64,000 bases of DNA from Runella rosea. Lineage in GTDB: Bacteria > Bacteroidota > Bacteroidia > Cytophagales > Spirosomataceae. The stretch lies in contig NZ_CP030850.1 in the NCBI RefSeq assembly GCF_003325355.1, forward strand, positions 1,736,001 through 1,800,000, written 5' to 3'. Position numbers and translations under genes: made by a program. The notes beneath the pieces are model-generated. The model made no database searches. It was given only the letters and a program-made list of their open reading frames with translations, and was not told the DNA's origin. Each line of letters begins with the position of its first letter. The stretch's first letter is position 1. Positions 32,150 to 57,520 of the stretch are shown piece after piece.

Positions 32150-32162
32150 ACAGAAGTACACA

Positions 32163-37004: not shown

Positions 37005-40000
37005 TTATTTTTTAATAAATGTATTTGTTAAACCGCTATTTTTAGCTACAACCAGCTGATTATTAACAAATACTAGACCTCTTACTTCCCCTTTTAGATA
37101 CAACCCAGATTGATGTTGGGGCAGGTATCGGAACCCTCCTTTTTTATCGTTAAAAAAGACTTGACCAAAATTAGCATCAATGTTGCCGATTCTAACCCGT
37201 CCATGCGTTTGATTTCCCGCCAAAAGCAGATCTTTGAAGCCATCACCGTTGAGGTCTTCGGTCAATATCGCGTACACTGGCGCAAACTGAGCCTCCATGG
37301 GCAGTGCTTTCATCTCGAAACTCCCCTTGTTGTTGACCAGATACATCGTCGAAAGGGTATTGATTTCCTGTTTTTGCGGTTTTTTATCCTTAAAAATCGC
37401 CAACACATCATCCGTCGTGGCCGAAGCATAACTTTCATGGCTCGTATAGGCTTTTTTGAGCGGTACGAGCTGATCCGAAAGTTCGTCTTTACTATACGCA
37501 GGGTAGCTTTTTCCTTGAATAAAATACGAGAGTATGGGGTCTAAACGGCCGTTCGAATCAAAATCATCGGTATGCAACGTCATAGGCTGTTCAAAAGAAG
37601 CCTTCCATTGCGTATTGAGGCCGTAATTACCGACAATCAAGTCCATATCGCCGTCGTTGTCAAAGTCATTGGCCGCGATACTTTGCCAAAAACCGATTGT
37701 TTTATCCAACCCATCGGTTACTTTTTTGAAAACGCCTTTCTCATTTTTCAGCCGAATAATAGGCGTCCACTCCCCTACAGCCACGATGTCGTCGTACCCA
37801 TCTTTGTCAAAATCCAAGACGCAAACATCAGTCAAAACCCCTAAATTTTCAAATGCAGGGTTGGCAACATTGGTAAATTTGCCGCCTTCATTTCGGTACA
37901 ACCGGGCAGGATTAAAGCGCGGATACTCTTGCGGAATAGCGCCTCCCGTCACAAACAAATCTAAGTCTCCATCACGGTCAAAATCAATCACTTCTACCGC
38001 GCTGTCGGCCAGCTTATCGGCGGGAATAGCATCGGCATTTTTGGTAAAATTTCCTTTTCCATCGTTTAAATAGAGACGGTTTTGAAGCATAAAATCATTG
38101 GGTAGATACTCATACCCGCCACTTGTGACGAACAAGTCCAAATCGCCGTCTTTATCGGCGTCAAAAAACACCGCGTCGGTGTCGGTGCAAAGTTCATCCT
38201 GCTTAAAGGCGGGCTGTTCTTTTCTGACAAACCGTGACGACGAACCACTCTCGCCTTTTTGTTGCAAAAACACAGCTCCAGGCTGCCCTTTACCACCCCC
38301 AATATAAATATCTTCCAATCCATCTTTATTCAAATCACCTTTGGCCATGCGCGGCCCCTGATAAGAATACATCTGGGGGAGCAGTAACTGTCGGCTAAAA
38401 TCATTGACGGGCATCTGCTGGTGCTCAAAATCAAGGTTTTTATTTTCAACAAACAACGGCGTTACAACAACCTCTCTGCTCCAGTTGGCATTGGGAGCAT
38501 ACGTGAGCTTAAGCACTTGATTGGCAGCCACGTTGGTTTGTTTCTGCATTTTCCCATCGGGCCAAATCACCACCAAACTGTCCACGGTTTTATGGGTTCC
38601 TAAGCCAAAATGTACGGGCGTCATCATACTACTTTCGTACCCGTGGGTAGGCGTAAATGCACGATATTGCTGTAAATCACCACAATACACATAAACTTTA
38701 GTACCATTTACGGCTCTTGACGAAGGCAACTGAACCGTTAGATAGTTCACTTTTCCCGACTCGCTGCTTTTGTTTTGGTACACATAAGCAGGCTCATTGA
38801 TATTGTTTGTCACAATTTCCAAATCCCCGTCATTGTCCAAATCCGCGTAAACGGCTCCGTTTGAAATCACAGGTGTATCAAATCCCCATTCGGTTTGTTT
38901 ATTGGAAAACGTCAGGTTTTGATTGTTTTTGAAAATGTAGTTAGGGGTTTTGGTCGAAGGCATTTTCTTGATGACTTCCAACACACTTTGGTTATTGTTC
39001 TCCCCGATTTCAGCGTAATATTTGATAAAGTCGTTGTTGGTATAATCTCGCAAATAGCCGTTGGTGACAAACAAATCCTGATACCCATCATTGTCATAAT
39101 CAGCCAACAGCGCCGACCACGACCAATCCGTATTGGAAATCCCCGCCACCTGACCAATTTCGGAGAACCTCACCCCATCTGGGCGCGACGAGATGTTTAA
39201 CTGCAACATATTTCGCATCGTTTGATTATGCAATCCATTGCGCAACATCGACAGATACGCCTCGTATTTATCGGGCCCAAAAAGTAATTTCTGGCGTTTG
39301 TTGTCTTCAGGCAACATGTCCATGGTGATAATGTCGGGCATTAAATCGTTGTTGACATCTCCAATGTCATTGCCCATCGAAAAATAACTGACGTGATTCG
39401 TCGCCTCCGTGATTTGGTCCGTAAAAGTGCCGTTTTGGTTATTGATGTAGAGATAATCGTTTTCGATATAATCGTTGGAAATATAAATATCCAGCCAGCC
39501 GTCACCGTTGACGTCGGCAGTGCTGATGCCAAGGCCAAAACCGATAGGATTCCCCTTGATGCCCGCTTCGCTACTGACATCTGTAAACTTGCCGCTGTCG
39601 TTGCGCATCAATCGGTCGCCCGCTAGTGAGTCACGCATGGCGTGAACGGCTTCTACGTCAAACCGTTTAAAATCTTTGACGTTGTGATTCAGCACATAAG
39701 CGTCTAAATCGCCGTCGTTGTCATAATCAAAAAAGGCGGTTTGGGTGGTAAAAGTGGCAAGGTCCAAGCCATATTCTTTGGCTTTTTCGGTGAAAGAAAC
39801 CTCGCTTTTGCCATTATTAACGTACAGTTTATTGCGGCGCAGTTCGGGATGGTCGACATTTCCTGACACCGAAACGTATACATCCTGCCAACCATCGTTG
39901 TTGATGTCCACCACCGTTACGCCCGTTTTCCATTCTCCGTTCCACGCAATACCTGCCGTTTGGGTAATATCTTCAAAGGCGAGTTTCCCTTTATTAAGGT

Positions 40001-40250
40001 ACAATTTATCTTCGCCTTGATTGGCCGTAAAATACAAATCTGTGAAGCCGTCGTTGTTAAAATCAGCCGCAGCTACGCCCCCACCGTTGTAGAAGTATTC
40101 GTAATTCAGTACGTTGTCTTGCTCTGTTTCTTCAATTTTGTTGACGAAGTCAATACCAGTGTGGCTCGCATCTAATTTTTCAAAAACAGAGTCCGATGGG
40201 GAGCAGGAATAAAAAACGAAAATGAGAATTAAAAAAGGAAATGATTTCAT
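37005..40250 (-). CDS. FG-GAP/VCBS-repeat, UnbV-domain lipoprotein
   Basis: 1081 residues with a lipobox near the N-terminus (FVFYSCSPSDS). I count about 14 DxDxDG-type repeats such as DFNNDGFTDLYFT, DYDNDGDLDAYVL, DVNGDGWLDIYIS and DFDRDGDLDLFVT, which form calcium-binding beta-propeller blades. In the middle is an ASPIC/UnbV domain (YVYCGDLQQYRAFTPTHGYE, PVHFGLGTHKTVDSLVVIWP). It would be a surface lipoprotein. It follows a SusC-SusD pair on the same strand and has a paralogue of the same layout at 54149-57520 next to another pair. Ligand is unknown, probably a glycan or protein. Confidence 0.9.
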   Translation of the reverse strand: MKSFPFLILIFVFYSCSPSDSVFEKLDASHTGIDFVNKIEETEQDNVLNYEYFYNGGGVAAADFNNDGFTDLYFTANQGEDKLYLNKGKLAFEDITQTAGIAWNGEWKTGVTVVDINNDGWQDVYVSVSGNVDHPELRRNKLYVNNGKSEVSFTEKAKEYGLDLATFTTQTAFFDYDNDGDLDAYVLNHNVKDFKRFDVEAVHAMRDSLAGDRLMRNDSGKFTDVSSEAGIKGNPIGFGLGISTADVNGDGWLDIYISNDYIENDYLYINNQNGTFTDQITEATNHVSYFSMGNDIGDVNNDLMPDIITMDMLPEDNKRQKLLFGPDKYEAYLSMLRNGLHNQTMRNMLQLNISSRPDGVRFSEIGQVAGISNTDWSWSALLADYDNDGYQDLFVTNGYLRDYTNNDFIKYYAEIGENNNQSVLEVIKKMPSTKTPNYIFKNNQNLTFSNKQTEWGFDTPVISNGAVYADLDNDGDLEIVTNNINEPAYVYQNKSSESGKVNYLTVQLPSSRAVNGTKVYVYCGDLQQYRAFTPTHGYESSMMTPVHFGLGTHKTVDSLVVIWPDGKMQKQTNVAANQVLKLTYAPNANWSREVVVTPLFVENKNLDFEHQQMPVNDFSRQLLLPQMYSYQGPRMAKGDLNKDGLEDIYIGGGKGQPGAVFLQQKGESGSSSRFVRKEQPAFKQDELCTDTDAVFFDADKDGDLDLFVTSGGYEYLPNDFMLQNRLYLNDGKGNFTKNADAIPADKLADSAVEVIDFDRDGDLDLFVTGGAIPQEYPRFNPARLYRNEGGKFTNVANPAFENLGVLTDVCVLDFDKDGYDDIVAVGEWTPIIRLKNEKGVFKKVTDGLDKTIGFWQSIAANDFDNDGDMDLIVGNYGLNTQWKASFEQPMTLHTDDFDSNGRLDPILSYFIQGKSYPAYSKDELSDQLVPLKKAYTSHESYASATTDDVLAIFKDKKPQKQEINTLSTMYLVNNKGSFEMKALPMEAQFAPVYAILTEDLNGDGFKDLLLAGNQTHGRVRIGNIDANFGQVFFNDKKGGFRYLPQHQSGLYLKGEVRGLVFVNNQLVVAKNSGLTNTFIKK

Positions 40251-40287
40251 TATAAAGCTTCATTAAAAGCACTAAAAATACGATAAA

Positions 40288-40318
40288 AAAAGGACACCTC
40301 ACGAAGAAATGTCCTTTT
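40288..40318 (-). terminator. Hairpin terminator between susD-like and FG-GAP genes
   Basis: 9-bp arms (AAAAGGACA) with a 13-base loop; on the minus strand a run of T follows the hairpin. It lies between the SusD stop and the FG-GAP start, so it may reduce read-through. Confidence 0.65.
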
Positions 40319-40348
40319 CTGACTTGAATGGTATTGGGGTATTTATGC

Positions 40349-41881
40349 TTATTTATCCCACCACATACGGGTTGTGAACAAATCGGCTCCCTGACGGGCA
40401 TTGGCCGCATCAATCCCCGGGTTTACGCCATATTCACCTTGCGAATAACGCAAGCGACGCGGAATCTGTCCGTTGGTTTCGTTGCCAGGGTAGTTAACAG
40501 GGGTCAATTTTGGATAACCCGTTCTGCGCCAGTTAGCCCATGATTCGATGTGCTGAAGCAAAGAAGCCGTCGACATCCAGAATTCAGTATGGATTGCGTC
40601 CATTTTGGCATCCAAGGTACCCGTAACAGGATACGGATTGGCCGCCAAATATGCCGCCGCATCGGCATCTGTCAGCGTGCCGCCGTACGAATTGATTTGC
40701 TTGATACCCGCTTTCAAAGCGTTATCATAGGCTGTTTTGGCAGTTCCAGTTACCCATCCGCGCTCAATAGCCTCTGCTTTCAGCAATTCTGATTCAGTGT
40801 AGGTCATTACAAATTGCGTATTTTCCAATGCATACATATTGGGGGCAGGGCGTGAGTAATTAGCCCGTGCATTCAATGGTGCAGGAAGAGCCGCCAACAT
40901 CGTCGCATCCGTTCCGATGGGCAGACCCACTTGTTTTTCAGGCGTTTTATCGCCTGATTTCAACGCCGAAACCACGCCCAAACGGGGGTCTTTACGGGTT
41001 TTCATGGCTTCAATATACGTTTTGCCCCACTGAATATTGTCTGCGGTTACGATGCCACGGCCGCCAGGGAACATATTCCAAGAGTTTGGATTGGAGTTGT
41101 TACCAGCACCAGTATTGGCAAATTTAACGCCGAAGCTATCTTCAATACCTGTCATCAAACCTCGGTCAGCCGCTTTCTTGGCCCACGCCTGTGCGCCAGC
41201 AGCGTCCACTTTCTGCATACGCATCGCAAAGCGAAGCATAAGTGAGTTGGCGGCGCGTTTCCATTTGTTGATGTCACCCGCAAAAACCAAATCAGCCGTT
41301 TTGGGAATGTAAGCAGAAGCACTCAAGGCGTTTCCAGCTTCTTCCAATTCTTTCAGCATATCGGCATAGATGTCTTTTTGTGCGTCATATTTAGGTGAAA
41401 ATACACCAGTAAGCGCACCATAACCAGCTTCCGAATACGGTACATCACCGTACACATCGGTCAAAACTCCCATCTCGATAACCCGCAAAATGCGCGCCAT
41501 TGACAAGACATTCACCTGCTTAGGGTCTTTCTTTGACAGTTCGATAAGATTGACCAAGTTTTTGATGGAGTTTGGATAAGCTCTTTCAAACCAAGCCGCG
41601 CTCAAATCTCCCTGAAACGTGTACACCGTTCCGCGGTAGAAGCCAACTTCTACCGACGACATGTGTTGCATCATCATGGCCGCGTAGATGAAGTTGGTCC
41701 GCCATGAGCGATAGCCCGGGTCACCGCCTTCACCCGTAATAAATAGGGTAGATTGCGCCAAAAGATAATCAAGAGGTACCGCCGACGGTGCGTTAGGATT
41801 GACATTGATGGTCTCAAAGTCTTTGGTACATGAACCCAGCGAAAATACAAGGGCCCATAAAATTATTAATTTACGTATCAT
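40349..41881 (-). CDS. SusD/RagB-family lipoprotein (SusD-like_2)
   Basis: 510 residues with a lipoprotein signal (LVFSLGSCTKDFE). SusD features are the N-terminal NVNPNAPSAVPLDYLLAQS, the TPR-like helices (GVLTDVYGDVPYSEAGYGAL) and C-terminal MWWDK. It sits on the outer-membrane surface and hands substrate to the SusC channel encoded just upstream (41935-45006). The length and N-terminus match the SusD-like_2 subgroup, often linked to peptides or other non-starch substrates. Confidence 0.92.
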   Translation of the reverse strand: MIRKLIILWALVFSLGSCTKDFETINVNPNAPSAVPLDYLLAQSTLFITGEGGDPGYRSWRTNFIYAAMMMQHMSSVEVGFYRGTVYTFQGDLSAAWFERAYPNSIKNLVNLIELSKKDPKQVNVLSMARILRVIEMGVLTDVYGDVPYSEAGYGALTGVFSPKYDAQKDIYADMLKELEEAGNALSASAYIPKTADLVFAGDINKWKRAANSLMLRFAMRMQKVDAAGAQAWAKKAADRGLMTGIEDSFGVKFANTGAGNNSNPNSWNMFPGGRGIVTADNIQWGKTYIEAMKTRKDPRLGVVSALKSGDKTPEKQVGLPIGTDATMLAALPAPLNARANYSRPAPNMYALENTQFVMTYTESELLKAEAIERGWVTGTAKTAYDNALKAGIKQINSYGGTLTDADAAAYLAANPYPVTGTLDAKMDAIHTEFWMSTASLLQHIESWANWRRTGYPKLTPVNYPGNETNGQIPRRLRYSQGEYGVNPGIDAANARQGADLFTTRMWWDK

Positions 41882-41934
41882 TGCTAAATGTCTTTTAATG
41901 GTTCAAAAAAGGTACTTCGGGGCATTCGCCTCCC

Positions 41935-44900
41935 TTAAAATTTCAAGTTAACGTTCAAACCAACCGTTCTTGTGACTGGTACACCCGCCAATTCAAGCCC
42001 TTGGGCGTTTGAGTTGTTATACGTCGACTCAGGGTCAATGTTAGGGGTATTCTTCATCAGAATCAACAAGTTACGGCCCACAATAGAAACCGAAGCACTC
42101 TTAAACGGAGAGCGTCCCAATACTTTTGAAGGAATGCTGTAATCAATAATGATTTGACGAAGTTTGAGGAAGTCTGAGCTGTATACAAAAGGTGTAGCGA
42201 TGTTGTTGGCTACACGAGATGCATAATCCTGAGCCGATACTTTAACCGAGTTAGGCTCCCCTTTTTCATTTACACCTTTTCCAACCAATCCACCTTCACG
42301 GCCTTCCAGCGTTTCAACGGTCAAACCTCTGCGGTAAGCATACGAGTTGGTTCCCGAGAATATGTACCCACCGAATTTACCATCTATCAAGAAGCTGAAT
42401 CCTACGCCTTTGTAACGGAATGAATTGTTAAACCCAAGCGTCAAAGGTGCTACCCCCGTTCCGAAGTTTTTGAGGTCGCCCTGAATCGGAAAACCCTGTG
42501 CATCGTGTACGACATTGCCAGCGGCATCTCTTTTGAAATCAAAGCCTTGTACTTGGCTATAAGGCAAACCTACTACGTGGTTGATGTAAGCCGTTCTGGT
42601 GCGGTTTTCGTCTACCCGAATGGTGCTCAGATCTTTGTAAAGACTTACCACTTTACTGTTATTATAGCCCATGTTGAATGAGGCATCCCAAGTAAAGTCT
42701 TTGCCGCTCAACACTTTGTAGTTAATGAGCAACTCAATTCCTTTGTTCTCAATTTCGCCCACATTAAACAACGCATTTCCGTAGCCCGAAGTAGCCGAAA
42801 TGGTCGCACCCACGATGTCGTTTGTGGTTTTACGGGTATAATATGCGAAGTCAATACCTACTTTGTTGTTGAAAAGACGGGTATCAAATCCAGCTTCAAA
42901 CGTGGTAGAAGTAAGCGGTTGAAGTGCTGCGTTTGGCACTTGCCCACCGTTGATTTGGGCCAGAGGGGCACCTAAGTGAGCACCCGACAATCCATAATAC
43001 AACGATAAATTATAAGGGTCAGTATCGCCACCCGCCTGTGCCCATGAAGAGCGCAATTTGAGGTAATTGATCACCGACGGCAATTTAACGGCTTCAGATA
43101 GTACAAAACTTGCACCTACTGACGGGTACAAAATGCTATTGTTGCCAGGTGCCAACGTTGAGAACCAATCGTTACGCGCAGTAGCCGTTAGGTATAAATA
43201 ACTATTGTAAGAAAATTCTGCCGAACCGTAGACCGAGTTGATGCGCTTACGGATAAGTTGTTCCCCAATTCCGCGGCCCGAAGGATCTCCGTTTGAAATA
43301 TCATAAAAGAATGGGATGTTTAGCGCACCGCTGCCGTAGTTTGAGTTCAGGTAAGTCTGTCTCATTTGGTTACCACCAACCAACACATTTACGCCGATTT
43401 TATCCGTTATTTTTTTATCAAAACCCAACATCAAATCCGCATTGGTTTCGGTAAAATTACGGTTGCTTACGTTGTAATTTCCACGGGTTGAGAAGGGAGT
43501 TCCGTAAGGCGTAATGTCTTGATAACGATAATTGAAGTTGTCAAATCCTAAACGACCTTTTACGTACAACCAATCGGTGATGTTGAAACGAGGCTCAAAT
43601 GCACCGATGATACGGTTTTTCTTATCCGAGTTTTTCCACTCAGCCGCCGCGTAGTACGGGTTTTGAATGTAGATGTTGTCCGACCAAGTCAATTCATAAT
43701 TTTGGTCCGTTACTTGGCTTTCTTCCAACGCTGCCACGCTCAGAGACGTCGGCATCGCGTTGATAGCGTAGGTAGCACTGCCGGGCGAGTCAGACAAACG
43801 CGGACGGTTAGTGGCTTTTTCAATGATGTATTTTACGTTAGAAACAAAAGAAAGTCTTTTGCCCAAGTTTCCGTTTACGTTCAAAGCAAAGTTGTTTCTC
43901 TTCAAACCTGCTCCCGGAATAACGCTCTTGTTGTTGAGGTCATTCATTGAAAAACGGTAAGTTACGCTTTCGGTTGCGCCCGTCAAAGCCACTGAATTGG
44001 TGAAGGTACTTCCCGTTTTATAAAAATTAGACATGTTGTCTTTCACTGCCGAGTAGGGACGTGACTTGCCGTCAAACTGAATCACGCTCGTTCCGTCCAA
44101 CTTGGCACCCCAGCTGTTGGAGGTCAAAGCTTCCTGTACCGTAGTTGGCTTCACGCCGTTGTTACCAGCACCGTATACGTACTGATAGTTCTCAAATTTA
44201 TTGATGAGCAAATCTTCTGCCACGATGTTACTGTTGATTTCGACACCAATGCCTTTGCCCGCTTTGCCACCTTTAGTGGTTACCAAAATAGCCCCGTTAG
44301 AAGCACGTGAGCCATAAAGAGCGGCGGCAGTTGCGCCTTTCAGTACGCTGATGTTCTCAATTTCATCGGGGTTAAGGCTAGAGATACCGTCGCCACGGTC
44401 GCCACCACCCCACATCCCCGCATTACCGAGGTTATCGTTATTGACTGGAATACCGTCTACCACGATAAGTGGTTGGTTATTGCCTGAAATAGAACCGTTT
44501 CCACGAATCACAATCCGGGTTGAACCTGCTGGCCCCGAAGCTGGTGCCGAGATATTTAAACCCGCCACTTTACCTTGCAAAGAATTGGCCATGTTGTTGG
44601 TACGGGCTTGGGTAAGGTCTTCACCTTTGATTTCCGAAACCGAATAGCCCAACGCTTTTTTCTCTTTTTTGATACCAAGGGCCGTCACTACAACCTCATT
44701 CAGCACATTGTCTTGTGTGGTAAGCGTAACGTTAATCACAGAGCTGTTGCCAACGGTTACCTCTTTGGCCGCAAAGCCGATATAACTGAATGTAAGCGTG
44801 GCTCCTTTTTTAACGTTAATACTGTAATCACCCTTATCATTGGTGACCGTACCTTGGTTAGATCCTTTGACTACGATGTTTACGCCGTAAATCGCCTCTC

Positions 44901-45006
44901 CGTTATTTCCCGAAACGCGCCCTTTCACATCTACATTCTGAGCATAACTCAGAAACGATGCAAAAGAAAACACGAACATCAAAAGATAATGTAGTTTTCT
45001 TTTCAT
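41935..45006 (-). CDS. SusC/RagA TonB-linked outer-membrane transporter
   Basis: 1023 residues. A signal peptide (ending SFLSYAQ) is followed by a carboxypeptidase-regulatory-like domain (about 25-105: VKGRVSGNNGEAIYGVNIVV, TLTFSYIGFAAKEVTV), the plug domain (SLQGKVAGLNISAPASGPAG, ISVLKGATAAALYGSRASNG) and the beta-barrel, ending in the aromatic VTRTVGLNVNLKF. It imports large oligomers with its SusD partner. The substrate is not identifiable from sequence. Confidence 0.95.
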   Translation of the reverse strand: MKRKLHYLLMFVFSFASFLSYAQNVDVKGRVSGNNGEAIYGVNIVVKGSNQGTVTNDKGDYSINVKKGATLTFSYIGFAAKEVTVGNSSVINVTLTTQDNVLNEVVVTALGIKKEKKALGYSVSEIKGEDLTQARTNNMANSLQGKVAGLNISAPASGPAGSTRIVIRGNGSISGNNQPLIVVDGIPVNNDNLGNAGMWGGGDRGDGISSLNPDEIENISVLKGATAAALYGSRASNGAILVTTKGGKAGKGIGVEINSNIVAEDLLINKFENYQYVYGAGNNGVKPTTVQEALTSNSWGAKLDGTSVIQFDGKSRPYSAVKDNMSNFYKTGSTFTNSVALTGATESVTYRFSMNDLNNKSVIPGAGLKRNNFALNVNGNLGKRLSFVSNVKYIIEKATNRPRLSDSPGSATYAINAMPTSLSVAALEESQVTDQNYELTWSDNIYIQNPYYAAAEWKNSDKKNRIIGAFEPRFNITDWLYVKGRLGFDNFNYRYQDITPYGTPFSTRGNYNVSNRNFTETNADLMLGFDKKITDKIGVNVLVGGNQMRQTYLNSNYGSGALNIPFFYDISNGDPSGRGIGEQLIRKRINSVYGSAEFSYNSYLYLTATARNDWFSTLAPGNNSILYPSVGASFVLSEAVKLPSVINYLKLRSSWAQAGGDTDPYNLSLYYGLSGAHLGAPLAQINGGQVPNAALQPLTSTTFEAGFDTRLFNNKVGIDFAYYTRKTTNDIVGATISATSGYGNALFNVGEIENKGIELLINYKVLSGKDFTWDASFNMGYNNSKVVSLYKDLSTIRVDENRTRTAYINHVVGLPYSQVQGFDFKRDAAGNVVHDAQGFPIQGDLKNFGTGVAPLTLGFNNSFRYKGVGFSFLIDGKFGGYIFSGTNSYAYRRGLTVETLEGREGGLVGKGVNEKGEPNSVKVSAQDYASRVANNIATPFVYSSDFLKLRQIIIDYSIPSKVLGRSPFKSASVSIVGRNLLILMKNTPNIDPESTYNNSNAQGLELAGVPVTRTVGLNVNLKF

Positions 45007-48160: not shown

Positions 48161-51100
48161 ATGAAGCAGAAATTACTACTGCTATTCGTCTGTCTCTGGG
48201 CGAATTTGAGCTTGTTCGCTCAAGAACGAACAGTGTCGGGTCAGATCAAAGACCCTACCGGTGCACCACTACCCGGGGTAAGTATTTTGGTCAAAGGTAC
48301 GACCAAAGGTACCAACTCTGACGCAGATGGGAACTTTAAAATTGGGATGGCTCCTGGAAGTACGCTGGTTCTCAGTGCCATCGGCTTTGCCAAACAGGAA
48401 ATTACACCTTCGGGCGTTACCGTAAATGTTACCATGCAGCAAGATGTTGCCGCACTGAGTGAGGTAGTTGTGGTAGGTTATGGTACCCAAAAGAAAGAAA
48501 CCGTTACGGGTTCTGTGGTATCGGTCAAAGGAACCGACTTGGTAAAATCACCAGCGGCCAACCTTTCCAACTCTCTTGCTGGACGCTTACCAGGGGTAAC
48601 TGCCGTAAACCGCAGCGGTTTGCCAGGTGGTGACGGCTCTGCCATCAGAATCCGGGGTTCAAATACATTGAACAACAACGGTGCACTTATCGTAATCGAC
48701 GGTATCCCTAACCGTGCTGGTGGTCTTGACCGTATCAACCCTGCCGACATCGAGAGCATCTCTGTATTGAAAGATGCAGCAGCAGCTATCTATGGTTCAC
48801 GGGCGGCCAACGGGGTTATTCTGATTACGACCAAGCGTGGTAAGACAGGTAAGCCTGAGTTGTCGTACTCGCTCAACCAAGGTTGGTCAAACCCGACTGT
48901 TATTCCTAAGTTGACAAATGCTGCACAATATACAAGTATGCTCAACGACTTGGACATTTATCAACTTCCAGTATCTGAATGGGCTGCTGCCAACCAAGCT
49001 TACAAAACAACGGGCTCATTTACCCGCCCCAACGGTACCGTACGTAACGCTCCGTTTTCTCCCCAAGCTATTCAGAAATACGCTGACGGCTCCGACCCAT
49101 GGAACTACCCCAACACTGACTGGTACGGTTCTACCCTCAAAAACTGGTCGCCACAGGTACGTCACAACCTCCAACTTAACGGAGGAACCGAAAACTTCTC
49201 TTATTTGGCTTCATTGGGTTACCAAAACCAAGATGCTAACTACATCCAGTCGTCTACGGGTTACAAGCAGTACGATATGCGTTTGAACTTTGACGCAAAA
49301 ATCAACAAGTACGTAACCATGACTTTAGGCGTAGTAGGTCGTCAGGAAGCGCGTCGTTATTCTACACAATCTCCTGGTGCTATCTTCCGGATGTTGATGC
49401 GCGGAAAACCCCAAGAGCCTGCTTTCTGGCCTGATGGCCGTCCTGGTCCAGACATCGAAAACGGACAAAACCCTGTGGTAATCACGACTGACTTGGCTGG
49501 TTATGACCGCGACACCCGCAATTATTTCCAATCAAACGGTCAGCTTGACATCAAAATTCCAGGCGTAGAAGGCTTGAAATTGAGCATGAATGCCGCTGTT
49601 GACAACTTAGCCCAAAATAACAAAACGTGGTTGATTCCATGGACGCTTTACCAAAAAGGTTCGGGAGTAGATGCCAATGGCAATCCAAATCTTGTTCCTG
49701 CCCGTAGAGGTCCTGCTGATCCAAGCTTGAACCAAGTGAATATCAATCAGCTTAACATCTTGTTGGGTACGGTGCTTTCTTATGATAAAACCATTGGTAA
49801 TCACACCTTCAACTTGTTGGCTGGTACAAACCGCGAAACCATCAAAGGCGATAACTTCTCGGCCTTCCGTCGTTTCTTCCTTTCGACTGCCCTCGACCAG
49901 ATGTTTGCGGGTGGTGACTTGCAACGTAACAACAACGGTGGTGCGTTTGAAACAGCTCGTATTAACTACTTCGGTCGTGTAGGTTATAACTTCAAAGAGA
50001 AGTACCTCGCCGAGTTCTTGTGGCGTTATGATGGTTCAGACATATTCCCTGAAGAAACCCGTTACGGCTTCTTCCCAGGAATTATGGCAGGTTGGGTTGT
50101 ATCAGAAGAAGAATTCTTTAAAAAAGCACTCCCTGCGGTTAATTTCTTAAAATTGCGCGGTTCAATCGGCCAATTGGGTAATGACCAAATTCCTTCGTAT
50201 CAGTACCTTTCAACTTACGGATTCAGAAGCTATATCTTAGGAAATGCTGAAACAAAAACGTTGTTTGAAGCACGTATCCCAAACACCCAAATTACTTGGG
50301 AAGTAGCTACCAACTCTAACTTAGGTTTGGAAGGACAGATGTTTAACGGTAACGTTTTCTTTGAATTTGACGTATTCTCAAACAAGCGTACCAACATTCT
50401 TTGGACCAAAAACGCTTCAGTACCTCAAAGTACAGGTTTGACTCTTCCACGTCAAAACTTGGGAGAAGTGCTAAACAAGGGATGGGAATTTAACATCGGT
50501 TACCGTAACCAAAAAGATGGCTTTAAGTATAATGTAAGCGTGAACGGTGGATATGCTCAAAACAAAATTTTGTTCTGGGATGAAGCTCCGGGAGCACCTG
50601 CATGGCAGCAAACAACGGGCAAGCCGATGTTTACATACCAAACTTACCTCTACGACGGGGTGTTTAAAGATCAAGCCGCCATCGATGCCAACACCATCGA
50701 TTACAAGGCAATCGTAAACACGCTCCGCCCTGGCGACATGAAGTACAAAGATTACAACGGTGACGGAAAAATTACTCCTGATGACCAAGTACGTAACAAC
50801 TTCACCAACATTCCTTTGTTTACGGGTGGAGTTAACCTCTCGGCTAGCTACCGCAACTTTGACTTGACCGTCCTTATCCAAGGAGCAGCCGGAGCAAAGC
50901 AATTTGTAAGTGCCGCAGAGATGGGTAATATCGGTAACTACTTGTTGGATATGTACGAAAATCGTTGGACAATCGACAATCCAAGCGACAAGCACCCACG
51001 CATTGCCAACCGTAACGACCAGTATTTTTCTGGTGGCAACGACTACTGGCTCAGAGATGCTGACTATCTCCGCTTGAAAAACTTGGAAGTTGGATACAAT

Positions 51101-51277
51101 ATTCCTTCTACTTTGGTGAAGAAAATCGGAATGAACACGCTTCGCGTATATTTCAATGGTTTAAACCTTTTTACGGTTGATAAGTTAAAGGTATTTGACC
51201 CCGAAACAGATAACTCTACTGGACAGTATTATCCTCAGCAAAAAATCCTGAACGTAGGTCTTGTTGCGGCATTCTAA
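48161..51277 (+). CDS. SusC/RagA TonB-linked outer-membrane transporter
   Basis: 1038 residues. Signal peptide ending SLFAQERT, carboxypeptidase-regulatory-like domain (about 22-100: VSGQIKDPTGAPLPGVSILV, GSTLVLSAIGFAKQEITPSG), TonB-related plug (SEVVVVGYGTQKKETVTGSV, SLAGRLPGVTAVNRSGLPGG, ISVLKDAAAAIYGSRAANGV) and a barrel ending KILNVGLVAAF. Partner SusD starts 18 bases after its stop. The VGYGTQKK motif is the common type, unlike the ALGIKKEKK start of the other SusC in this window. Substrate unknown. Confidence 0.96.
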   Translation: MKQKLLLLFVCLWANLSLFAQERTVSGQIKDPTGAPLPGVSILVKGTTKGTNSDADGNFKIGMAPGSTLVLSAIGFAKQEITPSGVTVNVTMQQDVAALSEVVVVGYGTQKKETVTGSVVSVKGTDLVKSPAANLSNSLAGRLPGVTAVNRSGLPGGDGSAIRIRGSNTLNNNGALIVIDGIPNRAGGLDRINPADIESISVLKDAAAAIYGSRAANGVILITTKRGKTGKPELSYSLNQGWSNPTVIPKLTNAAQYTSMLNDLDIYQLPVSEWAAANQAYKTTGSFTRPNGTVRNAPFSPQAIQKYADGSDPWNYPNTDWYGSTLKNWSPQVRHNLQLNGGTENFSYLASLGYQNQDANYIQSSTGYKQYDMRLNFDAKINKYVTMTLGVVGRQEARRYSTQSPGAIFRMLMRGKPQEPAFWPDGRPGPDIENGQNPVVITTDLAGYDRDTRNYFQSNGQLDIKIPGVEGLKLSMNAAVDNLAQNNKTWLIPWTLYQKGSGVDANGNPNLVPARRGPADPSLNQVNINQLNILLGTVLSYDKTIGNHTFNLLAGTNRETIKGDNFSAFRRFFLSTALDQMFAGGDLQRNNNGGAFETARINYFGRVGYNFKEKYLAEFLWRYDGSDIFPEETRYGFFPGIMAGWVVSEEEFFKKALPAVNFLKLRGSIGQLGNDQIPSYQYLSTYGFRSYILGNAETKTLFEARIPNTQITWEVATNSNLGLEGQMFNGNVFFEFDVFSNKRTNILWTKNASVPQSTGLTLPRQNLGEVLNKGWEFNIGYRNQKDGFKYNVSVNGGYAQNKILFWDEAPGAPAWQQTTGKPMFTYQTYLYDGVFKDQAAIDANTIDYKAIVNTLRPGDMKYKDYNGDGKITPDDQVRNNFTNIPLFTGGVNLSASYRNFDLTVLIQGAAGAKQFVSAAEMGNIGNYLLDMYENRWTIDNPSDKHPRIANRNDQYFSGGNDYWLRDADYLRLKNLEVGYNIPSTLVKKIGMNTLRVYFNGLNLFTVDKLKVFDPETDNSTGQYYPQQKILNVGLVAAF

Positions 51278-51295
51278 CCATTTAACCAGAAAAAA

Positions 51296-53155
51296 ATGAA
51301 ACAGTACAAACTCTTAGTCGCTTCCCTTATTGCTGCGACGGTAGTTGTTACCAGTTGTAACGACGATTTTGTTAACACACAACCCCTAAACGAACTTTCA
51401 GAAAATGCCGTTTGGACGGATGCCGCGCTTGCCGAAGCATTTGTTTCTGAAATTTATGCAGGCTTCGGAAACGGTGGTTTTGACGAACAAATGTTGGCTT
51501 CATTAACCGACGAAACCATCTTTACTCACCCAGGTCGCGGTATTACGACCATCACTGAGGGCCGTTCAAACCCCGCCGACATCGGTTGGGTAAACAACAC
51601 CATCAGCTGGCAGCAAATGTACCTGCGTATTCGCTCGTGTAACCTTGCCCTCAAAAATCTCGCCAGCCCTAAGTTTACAAACACGGGTAACATCGTAGAG
51701 CGTTTGACGGGTGAGACCAAATTTATGCGTGCTTATTTTTACCATCAGTTGGCCCGCTACTACGGCGGCGTACCTTTGGTAGATCGTCCGTATGATTTGG
51801 GTGAAGCCGATTACATGGCTACTCGTAATACTTGGGCTGAGACAGTCGCTTTTATTGTCAAAGATTTGGACGAAGCCGCTGCGCTCTTAAAGGGTAAAAG
51901 CATGGCTGCTGGCCGTGCCACTGAAGCCGCTGCTTTGGCGCTTAAAGCACGTATGTTAACGTACGATGCCAGCGATTTGCACGATGCTACCAAGATGAAA
52001 GCAAAATCTACAGTACTTTCTTCTTTCACAAAACCTGAATTAGTAGCAAACGTGACAGGCTCGCAGGCCGACCGTTGGCAAAAAGCAAAAGCTGCCGCTA
52101 AAGCAGTTTTGGATTTGCCAGGCTACGGTAACTTGTTGAATTTGACTGCACCCGTCTCTGCTCAACAGGGAACAACCAACTACATGAACAACTCATTGTC
52201 GCGCAATGGCGGTCAAAACGAGTTGCTGATGGCGCGTTATTTTATCAACGCAAAACAAGAAAACGGCGGACGTCAAGGACTTTTCAATGGTCCTAACGGC
52301 TACAACAACTGGGCAGGTAATACCCCTATCCAAGTAATGGTTGATGATTACGAAATGATGGACGGAACCAAGTTTGACTGGAAAAACCCTGCACAAGCTT
52401 CTGATCCATACGCAAATCGTGACCCTCGTTTCTATGCGTCTATCTTGACCGAAGGTTCACCTTGGAAAGTGCGTAGCAATGCCAACTTACCCCGTGACCC
52501 TGCAAGCCAAATCCAAACGGGTCGTTACGAAATCGTAAACGCTTCTGGTGCTAAAGTAACCCACTTTGGTTTGGATACTCGCCAAAGCCCAATCGAAGAC
52601 TGGAACGGAAGCTATACTGGTTATTATATCCGTAAATTTACCGATCCAAACCCTGCCATCGTTGACCAAAATACGTGGCAAGAGGTACCTTGGCCTATCT
52701 TGCGCTACACTGAGATGGTTTTCAACTACGCCGAAGCTTGTATTGAGCTAGGTCAGGACGAAGAAGCCCGTAATTGGTTGAACAAGATTCGTTTCCGTGC
52801 TGGTATGCCCGCTATTACTGAGTCAGGAGATGCGCTGAGACAACGTTTCCGCAACGAAAAACGCATTGAAATGTACTTGGAAGAGCAGCGTTTCCATGAT
52901 GCTCGCCGCTGGATGATTGCTCCTACTACCTTAGGACGCAAAGCCAACGGTATCAGCATCGTAGGTACACTCAAACCTGGCAAAACAGTTAGTCTTTATA
53001 AATACGATAAAGAAAACTACAACTACACTTACACAGTATTTGAAATTGACCCAGGTAAGGAAAACCGCAGCTGGGCTGATAAACTGTACTATTTACCAAT
53101 TGACCGGAACGAAATGAACCGGAACACTAAATTGGTTCAAAATCCAGGTTATTAA
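51296..53155 (+). CDS. SusD/RagB-family lipoprotein
   Basis: 619 residues with a lipoprotein signal (TVVVTSCNDDF). Typical SusD/RagB features: VNTQPLNELSENAVWTDAAL at the N-terminus, RAYFYHQLARYYGGVPLVDR, EMVFNYAEACIELGQDEEAR, and FRNEKRIEMYLEEQRFHDAR near the C-terminus. It follows SusC on the same transcript and would form the surface lid of that transporter. A hairpin follows its stop. Confidence 0.95.
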   Translation: MKQYKLLVASLIAATVVVTSCNDDFVNTQPLNELSENAVWTDAALAEAFVSEIYAGFGNGGFDEQMLASLTDETIFTHPGRGITTITEGRSNPADIGWVNNTISWQQMYLRIRSCNLALKNLASPKFTNTGNIVERLTGETKFMRAYFYHQLARYYGGVPLVDRPYDLGEADYMATRNTWAETVAFIVKDLDEAAALLKGKSMAAGRATEAAALALKARMLTYDASDLHDATKMKAKSTVLSSFTKPELVANVTGSQADRWQKAKAAAKAVLDLPGYGNLLNLTAPVSAQQGTTNYMNNSLSRNGGQNELLMARYFINAKQENGGRQGLFNGPNGYNNWAGNTPIQVMVDDYEMMDGTKFDWKNPAQASDPYANRDPRFYASILTEGSPWKVRSNANLPRDPASQIQTGRYEIVNASGAKVTHFGLDTRQSPIEDWNGSYTGYYIRKFTDPNPAIVDQNTWQEVPWPILRYTEMVFNYAEACIELGQDEEARNWLNKIRFRAGMPAITESGDALRQRFRNEKRIEMYLEEQRFHDARRWMIAPTTLGRKANGISIVGTLKPGKTVSLYKYDKENYNYTYTVFEIDPGKENRSWADKLYYLPIDRNEMNRNTKLVQNPGY

Positions 53156-53170
53156 TTAGAATCACAAGCA

Positions 53171-53198
53171 CTTGGAGAGCTTTAGAGAGCTCTCCAAG
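53171..53198 (+). terminator. Hairpin after the plus-strand SusCD genes
   Basis: 11-base arms (CTTGGAGAGCT) with a 6-base loop, 15 bases after the SusD stop, followed by ACTTTTATAA. A weak rho-independent terminator. Confidence 0.55.
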
Positions 53199-53276
53199 AC
53201 TTTTATAAATCTATGCTCTCAAAAATTGTAGGGCATAGATTTTTTTAATTTATAACCTCATACAGAGAAGTTTGTG

Positions 53277-53284
53277 TAGATTTG
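53277..53284 (+). promoter_or_regulatory. Candidate -7 box
   Basis: TAgaTTTG ends 36 bases before the ATG at 53321. Its position argues against the earlier in-frame ATG at 53282. Confidence 0.5.
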
Positions 53285-53320
53285 TTTATTAAGAAATATT
53301 ATTCCCAAAAAACAGAAACC

Positions 53321-54031
53321 ATGAAAACAGGCATCATTTTATCGTTCATTTTTGGAGTTTTTTCATTGGCGTTACAGGCACAAGACACCAAAGCAATCAG
53401 GGTAAAAGCCGATACCGACCTCAAATACGCAATTCCTGTAGCTGAGCGTTATCGCTATCCACAATTCAAAGAGGGGACGGTATCTTTTTTCAACGCTGCT
53501 CCCGCAACGGCAAAACTCAATTACAATTTTCAATTAGGAGAAGTACAGTTTCTTAGCCTAACCAAAGACACCTTGTCCTTGGCTAATGAGAAAACCATTA
53601 AACAGATTCAAATTGGCGAGAATATCTTTTACTATGACGTGGCCCACGGGTATGTAGAACGCATCGCCACGTATCCTAAAGCGTACTTGGTGGTCAAGAC
53701 GATGTTTAAAGTAGCCGCTGTTGAAAAAATGGCCGCGATGGGCAAATCCTCCGCCACGTCGTCTATTAGAGAAGTTAATATGCTTTCTACGGGCAATAGT
53801 TCAGTCCAAAAACTTGCATCAAAAGGAGACATCGTTTTTTCAAAAGATAAATTGTATTTCCTAATGGACTTAAACCATCGTTTTTACAAAACTACCAAAG
53901 GAGGGTTCTTAAAACTTTTCCCAACCCATAAAAAGGCCATTGAAGACTATTTCAAAGCCGAAAATCTTGATTTAGAGAATGAAGATCATCTCAAAAAAAT
54001 CCTTCAATTTTGTAGTGAATTACCCCAATAA
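53321..54031 (+). CDS. Secreted protein of unknown function
   Basis: 236 residues from the ATG at 53321, directly at the signal peptide (MKTGIILSFIFGVFSLALQA, then QDTK). The mature protein has no motif I recognise. It contains a region rich in Lys and Ala in the middle (KVAAVEKMAAMGKSSATS), a KLYFLMDLNHRFYK stretch and a helical acidic C-terminus. It lies between the SusD and FG-GAP genes on the same strand and has its own promoter-like box, so it may work with this cell-surface locus. Confidence 0.7.
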   Translation: MKTGIILSFIFGVFSLALQAQDTKAIRVKADTDLKYAIPVAERYRYPQFKEGTVSFFNAAPATAKLNYNFQLGEVQFLSLTKDTLSLANEKTIKQIQIGENIFYYDVAHGYVERIATYPKAYLVVKTMFKVAAVEKMAAMGKSSATSSIREVNMLSTGNSSVQKLASKGDIVFSKDKLYFLMDLNHRFYKTTKGGFLKLFPTHKKAIEDYFKAENLDLENEDHLKKILQFCSELPQ

Positions 54032-54088
54032 ATGAATAAATGCCATTTGCTATAACCATTCATTTTTACTCAATTTGTAGCTGCTTTG

Positions 54089-54104
54089 AGCACCCAAAGG
54101 TGCT
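54089..54104 (+). repeat. Small hairpin upstream of the FG-GAP gene
   Basis: AGCACC-caaa-GGTGCT, 45 bases before the start codon. It may be a weak terminator or leader structure. The longer reading frame from 54086 would include it, which is another reason to prefer the start at 54149. Confidence 0.4.
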
Positions 54105-54148
54105 TTGAGGCCTCATTAAATTTTTTAGCATTACTTTATCTTCTATTG

Positions 54149-57100
54149 ATGAAACATCTTACACTGCTCGCAGGGTGCATCATTGTACTATTCCTATCGA
54201 CAAGTTGCCAAGAACAAAAAGATACCCAAACGGAAGTAACCGAACCTACGCTATTTACCCTCCTTACTCCTGAAAAAACCAACGTCGATTTTCAGAATAT
54301 CATCAATGAAGGCCTTAATACTAACGTGTTGATGTATGAGTATTTCTACAACGGCGGCGGCGTTGCGGTGGGTGATTTGAACGGCGATAAACTGGAAGAC
54401 CTCTATTTTACTGCCAATCTCAGCGCCAACAAACTCTACCTCAACAAAGGAAAAATGCAGTTTGAAGACATTACCGCCGCCTCGGGAGCTGCCGGACGCG
54501 AAGGACCGTGGAAGACTGGAGTGACCATGGCAGATGTCAATGGTGACGGGAAATTGGATATTTTCATTTGTCATTCGGGCAATCTCCCCCCCGAGAAGAA
54601 AGCCAACGAATTGTTTATCAATCAAGGCAACAACGCCCAAGGCATCCCAACATTTCTGGATCAATCCGCTGAGTATGGCTTAAACGGCCCTTCATCGAGC
54701 ACAAATGCCTACTTTTTCGATTATGACCGTGACGGTGACTTGGACTTGTTTTTACTTAATCACAACATAAAGTCCTTGCCCGTTCTGAATGAATCAAACA
54801 GTGCAGAATTCAACAAACAAGACGACCCTGTAAGCGGTTCTCGGCTTTTTCGGAATGAGGGCAAACGTTTTGTTGACATTACTACCAAAGCAGGTATCAA
54901 CAGCTCTCCCCTCTCCTACGGTCTGGGGGCGGGCATCGCCGATTTTAACCAAGATGGCTGGCCGGATATTTACGTCAGCAATGACTATACCATCCCCGAC
55001 CATCTTTATATCAATAACAAAAAAGGTGGTTTTGTGGACCAACTTACTACCTCGATAGGACATACCTCTCATTTCTCCATGGGCAACGACGTGGCTGACG
55101 TGAACAACGACGCCACGCCCGATATTTTCACGCTTGATATGTTGCCAGAAGAAAATCGACGTCAAAAACTCCTCATGGCCCCCGACAACTACGAGAAATT
55201 TGACATGGTGGTCCGGTCGGGTTTTCATAAGCAGTACATGAGGAATATGTTGCAGTTGAATACCCTCTCTCTCCAGAAAGGAGATAGCAGGGTAAGGTTT
55301 TCTGAAATAGGTCAACTTGCAGGCATCTCCAACACCGATTGGAGTTGGGCAGCGCTTTTTGCCGATTATGACAACGACGGATGGAAAGACCTTTATATTA
55401 CAAATGGCTACCTGCGCGACTACACCAACCTCGATTTTCTGAAATACATGAACGATTTTCAGCAGAATCAACCCAACATCGGGCGGCAGGATGTGCTCAA
55501 TCTCGTGCAGCAGATGCCCGCTTCCAACGTGGTGAATTACCTCTATAAAAACAACAAAGACTTGACCTTCAAAAATGTTGGAATGCAATGGGGTTTGGGG
55601 CAAAACTCTAACAGCAACGGAGCCGTTTATGCCGATTTAGACAACGACGGAGACTTGGATTTGGTGGTCAACAACGTAAATCAGCCCGCATTTATCTACC
55701 AAAATGAAGCCCAACAATTGCTCAAAAATCACTACCTGAAAGTTACATTGGTGGGCAATGAACTCAACCGTTCGGGCATAGGGGCGAAGGTCATTCTGTA
55801 CCAAAAAGGCCAAACCCAGTACCTAGAGCAAATGCCCATGCGTGGGTATCAGTCGAGTGTTTCCAATATACTGCATTTTGGATTGGGAAACGCCACAACG
55901 ATTGATTCGCTAAAAGTACAATGGCCTAACGGCAAACAACAGCGCCTTTCCAACGTTAAAGGAGATCAATGGCTAACCCTGAACGAAAAGGACGCCAATG
56001 AAACCATCGGTACGCCTGCTTCGAAAGAACCGCTGTTTAAAGAAATGCCGTCGGGGATTCCATCGGGGATAAATTATGCCCAGCCTGCTTTAGCCTACAA
56101 TGATTTTAAAAGGCAGATTCTGATGGTTAATCCACAATCGTACGTGGGTCCGGCACTAGCCAAGGCCGATGTCAATGGCGATGGCTTGGAAGATGTATTT
56201 GTGGGCGGCGGCAATGGACAGGCTGGAGCGCTGTTTTTGCAGCAAAACGGCCCGTCGCCACGGTTCGTCAAAAAACCACAAGCAGCTTTTGAAATCGACG
56301 CCAAAAGCGATGCTTCCGACGCGGTATTTTTCGACGCCAATGGTGATGGCTCCCTCGATTTGTACGTTTGTCACGGAGGTTACGCCAATTTCGAGCCCAA
56401 TGATGCTTTGTTACAAGATGCGCTGTATTTCAATGACGGAAAAGGAAATTTTGCCAAAAATACGACCGCTCTTCCGTCCATGCTTGTCAGCACAAGTTGC
56501 GTCCGGGTTACTGACCTAAACGGCGACCAGAAACCCGATTTATTTATAGGCGGACGCGTTGTGCCGGGTAGTTACCCCGAAATTCCCTCTAGTTTTATTT
56601 TGCTCAACGACGGCAAAGGGAACTTCAAAGATGCCACTGCTTCTGTGGCTCCTGAGCTTCAAAAAATCGGCATGGTGACCGATGCCGCTTGGCTCGACCT
56701 CAACGGAGATAAAAAATCCGAGTTGATTGTGGTGGGAGAATGGATGCCTTTGATGGTTTTTGAAAACAGTAATGGTAAACTGGAGAATAAAACTGATAAA
56801 TACTTTGACCGAAACTATAGCGGTTGGTGGAATAAACTGCTGGTGGACGACTTCAACGGCGATGGAAAAATGGACTTAATCGTCGGAAATTTGGGGCTCA
56901 ATAGCCAAGTGAAAGCTTCTCCCGAACAACCCGCCGAACTCTATTTCAAGGATTTTGACCAAAATGGTCGTATTGACCCCATTTTGTGTACGTATATCCA
57001 AGGGAAAAGTTACCCTTACATCACCCGCGACGAATTGATCGGGCAATTACCCATTATGGGAAAGCGGTATCCTGATTACAAAACCTATGCTGACGCTACC

Positions 57101-57520
57101 CTCAAAGATGTATTTACGGCATCGGAGCTTGAAGGCGCCACACGGCTCGAAGCCAATCATTTGGCTACAACTTGGTTTGAGCAAGGCCCTGCTGGAAAAT
57201 TTACGGTCAAAAAATTACCCATCGAAGTGCAGACCTCTCCCATTCACGCCCTGATTTCATTGGATTATGACAAAGACGGAAAAAAGGATTTGCTCCTTTG
57301 CGGCAATCAACTCCGCACCCGTCTCCGTCTCGGGCAGTACGACGCCAATTTCGGTACGCTGCTCCATAACAACGGCAACGGAACGTTTAGCTATGTTCCA
57401 CAGCATAGCTCTGGTTTTTACATCAATGGCGAAGTAAGAAGCATTTTATCCATAAACAACGAATTGTTGTTTGGAATAAATCAAGGCGTGCTTAAAACAT
57501 ACCGAAAAGTAGAGAGATAA
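54149..57520 (+). CDS. FG-GAP/VCBS-repeat, UnbV-domain lipoprotein
   Basis: 1123 residues from the ATG at 54149, which starts a lipoprotein signal with lipobox LSTSC. About 14 DxDxDG-type blades (DLNGDKLEDLYFT, DYDRDGDLDLFLL, DYDNDGWKDLYIT, DFNGDGKMDLIVG) flank a central UnbV domain (VILYQKGQTQYLEQMPMRGY, LHFGLGNATTIDSLKVQWPN). It is a clear paralogue of the protein at 37005-40250 with repeats in the same order. It would be lipid-anchored and surface-exposed, probably binding calcium. It is downstream of the second SusCD pair. Confidence 0.9.
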   Translation: MKHLTLLAGCIIVLFLSTSCQEQKDTQTEVTEPTLFTLLTPEKTNVDFQNIINEGLNTNVLMYEYFYNGGGVAVGDLNGDKLEDLYFTANLSANKLYLNKGKMQFEDITAASGAAGREGPWKTGVTMADVNGDGKLDIFICHSGNLPPEKKANELFINQGNNAQGIPTFLDQSAEYGLNGPSSSTNAYFFDYDRDGDLDLFLLNHNIKSLPVLNESNSAEFNKQDDPVSGSRLFRNEGKRFVDITTKAGINSSPLSYGLGAGIADFNQDGWPDIYVSNDYTIPDHLYINNKKGGFVDQLTTSIGHTSHFSMGNDVADVNNDATPDIFTLDMLPEENRRQKLLMAPDNYEKFDMVVRSGFHKQYMRNMLQLNTLSLQKGDSRVRFSEIGQLAGISNTDWSWAALFADYDNDGWKDLYITNGYLRDYTNLDFLKYMNDFQQNQPNIGRQDVLNLVQQMPASNVVNYLYKNNKDLTFKNVGMQWGLGQNSNSNGAVYADLDNDGDLDLVVNNVNQPAFIYQNEAQQLLKNHYLKVTLVGNELNRSGIGAKVILYQKGQTQYLEQMPMRGYQSSVSNILHFGLGNATTIDSLKVQWPNGKQQRLSNVKGDQWLTLNEKDANETIGTPASKEPLFKEMPSGIPSGINYAQPALAYNDFKRQILMVNPQSYVGPALAKADVNGDGLEDVFVGGGNGQAGALFLQQNGPSPRFVKKPQAAFEIDAKSDASDAVFFDANGDGSLDLYVCHGGYANFEPNDALLQDALYFNDGKGNFAKNTTALPSMLVSTSCVRVTDLNGDQKPDLFIGGRVVPGSYPEIPSSFILLNDGKGNFKDATASVAPELQKIGMVTDAAWLDLNGDKKSELIVVGEWMPLMVFENSNGKLENKTDKYFDRNYSGWWNKLLVDDFNGDGKMDLIVGNLGLNSQVKASPEQPAELYFKDFDQNGRIDPILCTYIQGKSYPYITRDELIGQLPIMGKRYPDYKTYADATLKDVFTASELEGATRLEANHLATTWFEQGPAGKFTVKKLPIEVQTSPIHALISLDYDKDGKKDLLLCGNQLRTRLRLGQYDANFGTLLHNNGNGTFSYVPQHSSGFYINGEVRSILSINNELLFGINQGVLKTYRKVER

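Follow-up and report, generated by a model that had tools for sequence, protein, structure and literature searches.

Related FG-GAP/UnbV lipoprotein genes beside two unrelated types of SusC–SusD importer in Runella rosea

Introduction

Are two neighbouring SusC–SusD importer loci, each followed by a gene for a giant FG-GAP/UnbV lipoprotein, two copies of one locus, or has one lipoprotein family come to stand beside importers of different kinds? This question is raised by a 64,000-nucleotide stretch of the Runella rosea genome (NCBI RefSeq assembly GCF_003325355.1, contig NZ_CP030850.1, forward-strand positions 1,736,001 to 1,800,000), hereafter called the window, whose numbering is used throughout unless another region is named. 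Its loci A and B each carry susC, susD, and a gene that we call FG, for the FG-GAP repeats of its product. SusC–SusD (SusCD) loci are usually taken as substrate-specific units, in which the transporter and its accessory proteins co-evolve. A preliminary description of the sequence had read the pair as divergent, paralogous loci that encode a conserved surface complex with different cargo.

Two importer types with one lipoprotein family

All six genes of the two loci are intact. Locus A lies on the minus strand and comprises susC of type A (motif ALGIKKEKK, 1023 aa; 41935–45006), susD of the SusD-like_2 subgroup (40349–41881), and FG_A (1081 aa, with a lipobox-type Cys16; 37005–40250). Locus B lies on the plus strand and comprises susC of type B (motif VGYGTQKK, 1038 aa; 48161–51277), susD of the SusD_RagB subgroup (51296–53155), and FG_B (54086–57520, whose start is more likely the ATG at 54149). 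Both are SusCD-type importer loci, since the SusC proteins score 632 bits (A) and 900 bits (B) against TIGR04056, for which the cut-off is 368 bits, and each adjoins a SusD-family gene above its own cut-off (PF12771 with an E-value of 2e-74, along with PF12741, for A; PF07980 with an E-value of 1e-56, along with PF14322, for B).

FG_A and FG_B are 47% identical (519/1114) almost from end to end. In contrast, SusC_A and SusC_B share 32% over 436 N-terminal columns and 25% over a further 421 columns, and SusD_A and SusD_B, which belong to different Pfam families, show no significant BLAST match to each other (best E-value 0.54). The loci are therefore not two copies of one locus. The preliminary description was accurate as to genes, coordinates, domains, and the difference in SusC type and SusD subgroup; its term "paralogous" holds for the FG genes and does not extend to the loci as wholes.

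Sequence and predicted fold of the FG protein

Both FG proteins belong to the CRTAC1/UnbV family, with an FG-GAP propeller (FG-GAP_3, PF13517, E-values 3e-73 and 7e-77) followed by a single UnbV_ASPIC domain (PF07593) above cut-off, encoded at 38511–38705 on the minus strand in FG_A (contig 1774511–1774705) and at 55775–55975 on the plus strand in FG_B (contig 1791775–1791975). A motif scan found 13 calcium sites of the DxDxDG type in each protein, and a 14th was recognised by eye (DFDSNGRLDP near residue 896 of FG_A, DFDQNGRIDP in FG_B), which bears out the earlier estimate of about 14 repeats around UnbV and places seven motifs before this domain and seven after it.

An AlphaFold2 model of FG_A alone, built with 64 sequences, reached a pLDDT of 93 and a pTM of 0.93, and this confident model predicts a CRTAC1-like propeller with UnbV, followed by a second propeller. 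The best Foldseek match of the model was murine CRTAC1, and VIA-align superposed CRTAC1 (9etn) on model residues 20–586 with a Z of 37.8 and an rmsd of 2.5 over 460 aligned residues. CRTAC1 was also the sole match of the FG_A sequence among solved structures at an E-value threshold of 0.01 (E 2e-14). Human CRTAC1, according to a passage in PMC10477339, consists of one FG-GAP stretch, UnbV, and an EGF-like domain; unlike FG_A, it has no second propeller. Residues ~595–1081 of FG_A matched the EPTP propeller of LGI1 with a Z of 31–32 and the propeller of fungal aldos-2-ulose dehydratase with a Z of 29.5 (VIA-align). Because many unrelated propellers reach a Z of about 26, the second half may be called a propeller and little more; the fold matches of FG_A are mostly generic propellers. 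Among the 64 aligned FG rows, Cys16 is kept in at least 90%, and 67 columns are invariant (46 of them in the first propeller, 16 in the second, and 5 in UnbV), including the non-calcium residues T374–W378, N397–G398, G853/W855, and N875–N879. As a separate observation, one FG_A relative (G125:C427:6206–9457, 69%) carries a single in-frame TGA, either a pseudogene or a sequence error.

The dehydratase match and the invariant non-calcium residues, which point to a site that is fixed and does not vary with the substrate, would suit an FG protein that is itself a surface or secreted enzyme acting on glycan, e.g., a propeller lyase, dehydratase, or hydrolase. We regard such a role as unlikely, on the order of one possibility in several, and it may overlap with that of an importer subunit. 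Non-enzyme propellers match too (Z 26–32), no enzyme family exceeded its cut-off in Pfam or NCBIfam, and no carbohydrate-active enzyme (CAZyme) model appeared among the matches of FG_A and FG_B in these two databases.

FG genes frequently follow SusC–SusD

The genome of R. rosea contains eight UnbV genes and 53 SusC genes above the NCBIfam cut-off. Six of the eight FG genes follow SusC–SusD under a strict walk, which halts at any open reading frame (ORF) on the opposite strand and thus undercounts one region (L012), where a DUF5107/TPR gene and a stray opposite-strand ORF intervene; with this region the count is seven of eight. The linkage exceeds chance with p ~5e-8, assuming 6000 genes and four places per SusCD pair. 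The genome also holds a solitary FG-GAP/UnbV gene (L011:8439–11807), with a beta-lactamase-family gene close by and SusCD absent from the 19.5 kb fetched.

Fifty-three of the 98 genomes of an order-wide sample have members of the UnbV family. A census of full-length FG genes was taken at the first 45 distinct places of a score-ranked list, with the R. rosea genome excluded. The preliminary description had named, as the observation that would refute it, FG genes lying mostly apart from SusCD genes in relatives; instead, 40 of 56 FG genes were linked on the same strand to SusC–SusD, and two more to SusD at a contig edge. Forty of the 45 regions account for 38 of 53 genes linked, the two SusD-linked genes at an edge, and 13 unlinked genes; the other five regions, which are small or fragmentary contigs or lie at an edge, were read as gene strings, added two linked genes and one unlinked, and do not enter the trees, hairpin counts, or PAP2 counts below. 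SusC–SusD also precedes a truncated FG frame in regions L200 and L203, and L201 is a fragment. Among 80 loci chosen by similarity, and thus biased, 80 of 110 FG genes were linked, two followed SusD at an edge, 16 were unlinked, and 12 lay at edges, with 20 FG matches shorter than 900 aa left out of the count. Twenty close kin of FG_A comprised 12 in adjacent SusC–SusD–FG order, one with a gene in between, one after SusD at an edge, one at an edge, and five unlinked. SusC–SusD–FG is thus a frequent gene order. Triads of this kind were also seen in a contig of a Gemmatimonadaceae metagenome-assembled genome, where a binning error is possible, and in Fodinibius (Balneolota) (L044, L093).

This census bears on a second alternative, in which FG would act as an adhesin or belong to the surface layer, sharing no more than its regulation with SusCD and playing no part in uptake. 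Such a role would fit the unlinked FG copies and a distant similarity in sequence to integrin alpha propellers, and a passage in PMC2668756 counts FG-GAP repeats of marine flavobacteria among calcium-binding adhesion repeats. The linkage to SusC–SusD in the R. rosea genome, however, is far above chance, and the FG position after susD recurs in distant families; both make an adhesin that only shares regulation with the importer rather improbable, in our view more so than the enzyme.

Partner changes on the trees

FastTree phylogenies were built from 85 triads (84 of them different), 15 of type A and 70 of type B. SusCD type changes once on the SusC tree and once on the SusD tree, whereas four changes on the FG tree are forced by starred branches, compared with 14 in shuffles. 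Type is thus far from random on the FG tree, yet its inheritance is not strict. A single clade of type-A FG genes was rejected by the approximately unbiased (AU) test with LG+G4 on 35 chosen rows (p-AU 0.0002), again on 34 rows without the Aquimarina sediminis locus L059 (p-AU 9e-5), and modestly on 33 rows without L059 and L070 (p-AU 0.023), the grouping having been seen before these tests were made. In the R. rosea genome, the six FG-linked SusC proteins require six changes on a tree of all 53 SusC proteins, where shuffled labels give a mean of 5.8. The type changes on the FG tree together with the AU tests rule out strict co-inheritance of FG with SusCD; as judged from these trees, FG genes have changed SusCD type. 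Of the "conserved surface complex" proposed earlier, the recurrent association of FG with SusCD stands, while "conserved" is too strong a word for the partners, given the four type changes, the AU rejection, and the scatter among SusC proteins.

The same trees bear on the possibility that loci A and B descend from one duplicated SusC–SusD–FG locus, whose SusC and SusD later diverged past recognition. The shared gene order, the FG identity, and the proximity of the loci are what such an origin would leave behind. SusC_A and SusC_B, however, lie across the midpoint root of the 53-SusC tree from each other, and the five nearest rows of each all lack FG; FG_A groups with Larkinella and FG_B with other genera; and a type that changes once on the SusC and SusD trees but four times on the FG tree is not what a duplicated triad would give. 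The loci are also not tied to each other, since congener G166 carries locus A behind a different upstream gene (region L180), and congener G010 keeps locus B with its flanks (L104) while its best FG_A match reaches only 49%. On the SusC-tree positions and the type changes, we reject a local duplication of the entire locus and consider a shared duplicated ancestor of this kind highly improbable.

An exchange between two Aquimarina loci

A change of partner can be followed at the level of DNA between Aquimarina megaterium (L050) and A. sediminis (L059). The sigma factor, FecR, and FG proteins of the two loci are 83%, 77%, and 78% identical, respectively. The SusC proteins are 77–78% identical over the first 120 alignment columns, then 47%, and then mostly 17–34% per window of the alignment, and SusD is of the SusD_RagB subgroup in L050 and of the SusD-like_2 subgroup in L059. 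The main DNA match breaks off ~178 codons into susC (base 5216 of L050) and restarts within the FG gene (base 10013). The differing segment, with the SusC plug and barrel and SusD (L050:4681–10012; L059:3954–9991), thus lies between the conserved sigma factor, FecR, and STN domain on one side and FG on the other. L059 encodes one protein more, whose match to Calx-beta is weak (26.7 bits, the cut-off being 27). The pair has the appearance of a natural and recent-looking exchange of SusC and SusD, in which L059 was probably the recipient, because the surrounding FG clade is otherwise of type B (7/8 rows).

Genomic surroundings and candidate substrates

Downstream of locus A, outside the range covered by the preliminary description, follows a cluster of mannan-type genes on the minus strand (26769–36591). 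It begins with a sodium:solute symporter (SSF, by family match; 34762–36591) and continues with a GH130 gene of the mannoside-phosphorylase family (PF04041; 33503–34813; the NCBIfam mannobiose phosphorylase models stay below cut-off), an AGE-family 2-epimerase (PF07221; 32163–33395), a GH5 gene (PF00150; 31133–32161), a SASA-type carbohydrate esterase (PF03629; 29021–30973), an aldo/keto reductase (AKR, PF00248; 28007–29020), and a GH26 gene of the beta-mannanase family (PF02156; 26769–27914). By gene content, locus A and this cluster would qualify as a beta-mannan polysaccharide utilisation locus (PUL), and the substrate of locus A is probably beta-mannan. The same does not hold for locus B, which has no CAZyme among its immediate neighbours. 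The two surroundings differ in this respect, and the different cargo proposed earlier is plausible. A plasmid search with the SusCD_A DNA found nothing.

An FG_A ortholog occurs in one of four congeners (G166, 77%), the best matches in the others (G010, G141, G154) being 49–50%. The G166 region, L180, keeps the whole order, with identities of 91% for SusC, 92% for SusD, 75% for FG, 82% for SSF, 82% for GH130, 61% for AGE, 80% for GH5, 82% for SASA, 88% for AKR, and 78% for GH26. The full mannan set is absent from the other 19 regions of FG_A kin (52–71%), several of which end at contig edges, with single genes similar to the cluster in L181, L185, and L196. Among the FG_A kin fetched, the mannan link is thus confined to the genus. 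A type-B locus of an uncultured Aquimarina (L087) has GH26, GH130, and AGE-like genes upstream.

The 71 proteins downstream of FG-type SusCD loci include melibiase, GH31, fucosidase, GH127, GH20, GH130, and GH88 families, and six of ten hand-picked neighbours are GH3, GH10, GH67, GH26, or GH31 genes, some of them on the opposite strand. This co-travel with glycosidase genes would also suit an enzymatic FG protein, but the CAZyme sets nearby differ, which makes a single glycan-specific activity unlikely; the variety of these neighbours suggests that the FG family is not tied to one glycan.

A further companion that would suit an enzyme is a PAP2/vanadium-haloperoxidase-like gene, found in 28 of 91 SusCD loci with FG and in none of 63 without it, a comparison uncorrected for kinship, in which 48 of the 63 FG-less loci come from one genome. 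Pfam assigned PAP2 to 21 and VCPO_2nd to three of the 71 downstream proteins, and PAP2 is absent from a list of 25 families for 63 R. rosea control proteins, in which some single-member families do not appear. Loose patterns for vanadium-haloperoxidase-type motifs match 36 of 52 such PAP2 proteins. The gene, of about 440 aa, stands after FG, e.g., at L014:13282–14604; it adjoins neither locus A nor locus B.

As for the remaining genes, NrtR, RimK, and Zn_protease genes lie between the two loci and form one flank of locus B, the other being HolB, DsrE, and PAD_porph. The NUDIX/NrtR-type gene with an AraR_C match upstream of locus A (45637–46344) is possibly its regulator; in L180 the gene directly upstream of locus A is a different one. 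A small ORF between SusD_B and FG_B on the plus strand (53282–54031, likely start 53321) had no match in a Pfam search and is kept in a congener (L104) at 95%.

Hairpins after susD

Terminator-like hairpins lie between SusD_A and FG_A (40286–40320, minus strand, 15 pairs), between SusD_B and the next gene (53171–53198, plus strand, 12 pairs), and, as a strong one, after FG_A (36940–36975, minus strand). The last separates FG_A from the mannan genes, which may thus form another transcript. Such a hairpin follows susD in 53 of 87 triads, susC in none of 87, and FG in six of 87. After deduplication within sets, it was found after susD in 52 of 89 cases with FG next (four sets), in 21 of 62 followed by a different gene on the same strand, and in six of 13 where the next gene was opposite or far, compared with 21 of 273 other gene pairs taken as a control. 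In R. rosea itself, it is present at 14 of the 42 loci where some gene other than FG follows susD on the same strand. A hairpin special to FG loci was considered and rejected, since SusCD loci of this genome carry it generally; over the four sets it is commoner where FG is next. Internal terminators set the subunit ratios of clostridial ABC importers (PMC9045158); by analogy, FG is probably expressed at a lower level than SusCD because of the hairpin that follows susD.

A proposed portable accessory subunit

Taken as a whole, the evidence inclines us, with some reserve, to read the FG-GAP/UnbV lipoprotein as a portable accessory subunit of SusCD importers. The protein would be a lipoprotein with two seven-bladed, calcium-binding propellers flanking UnbV, and its gene appears to occupy the position of the genes for glycan-binding lipoproteins in other PULs. 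Portability is suggested by one FG family beside unrelated SusCD types and by SusCD cores that appear to have been exchanged next to FG. SusC and SusD would bind an oligomer and transport it inward by the pedal-bin route, with the FG lipoprotein docked at or close to the SusC rim and presumably exposed at the surface. Its conserved CRTAC1-like half with UnbV may be the generic part, while the more variable second propeller could point toward the environment and gather or orient the substrate.

Several observations weigh against this role. Fourteen of the 56 order-wide FG genes, and five of the 20 close FG_A kin, have no SusCD upstream, and the FG protein can therefore persist without it. Four of the ten hand-picked neighbours fall outside the glycoside hydrolases, namely a symporter, an FtsX/MacB permease, a protein resembling thioredoxin, and the bestrophin of L059. 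An acidic export signal after the lipid cysteine is not consistent among 97 FG proteins, and a lipobox pattern of our own matched 70 of these 97; surface exposure is thus unsupported by the export-signal test. In 24 of 31 independent close pairs, the FG proteins have diverged more quickly than the SusC proteins, a pattern that a loose partner or surface pressure would explain no less than a subunit. Between genomes, with all pairs, the Spearman correlation of tree distances is 0.30 for FG–SusC (0.67 within type B, 0.65 within type A) and 0.91 for SusC–SusD; because these values include shared species history, the correlations within genomes are preferred (25 pairs, 10 genomes), and here FG and SusC distances are uncorrelated (rho 0.08, p 0.66), whereas those of SusC and SusD are correlated (rho 0.82, p 0.018).

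Relation to known systems and significance

In the utilisomes, as described in a passage of PMC7618045, accessory lipoproteins sit on the lip of SusC. The loci described here likewise have a further lipoprotein gene after SusC–SusD and, in many cases, CAZyme neighbours, locus A lying by its mannan-type cluster. They differ in that the third protein is a double propeller of 1080–1140 aa with UnbV, rather than a surface glycan-binding protein with immunoglobulin-like domains or a glycoside hydrolase. The nearest solved relative of SusC_A is BT_2264 of Bacteroides thetaiotaomicron (5fq6 chain B, E-value 6e-124; SusCD complex 5fq6–5fq8). Its complex, BT2261–2264, is presumably the one meant in the next example. 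A SusCD pair of an uncharacterised B. thetaiotaomicron PUL binds two lipoproteins without assigned function, as stated in a passage of PMC7618045.

BtuB–BtuG, in which a propeller lipoprotein forms a lid on a TonB-dependent transporter (a passage in PMC10404256), likewise pairs a beta-propeller lipoprotein with such a transporter. The difference is that BtuG is a single seven-bladed propeller that serves as the lid, whereas the loci here have a SusD gene for the lid, to which the double propeller is an addition. CRTAC1 (ASPIC) shares the FG-GAP propeller and UnbV. No study linking the UnbV family with SusC/SusD was found in the open-access literature searched; in it, FG-GAP and SusD terms meet in PMC2668756, where they stand apart, and in a horse study, and VCBS and SusD terms in no paper.

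A broader proposal is possible rather than probable, and we offer it tentatively. FG double-propeller lipoproteins might be a general, exchangeable uptake subunit of Bacteroidota, with the SusC plug and barrel and SusD as a cassette that is exchanged while the control module on one side (ECF sigma factor, FecR, and the STN domain of SusC) and the surface lipoprotein on the other stay fixed; a subset might add a vanadium-haloperoxidase-like enzyme to give a four-gene cassette. The partner changes mean that this widespread family of accessory proteins has passed from one SusCD type to the other on several occasions, including the recent-looking exchange between L050 and L059. They would enable a direct test of where in a PUL specificity is determined and of which lipoproteins dock on SusC generally.

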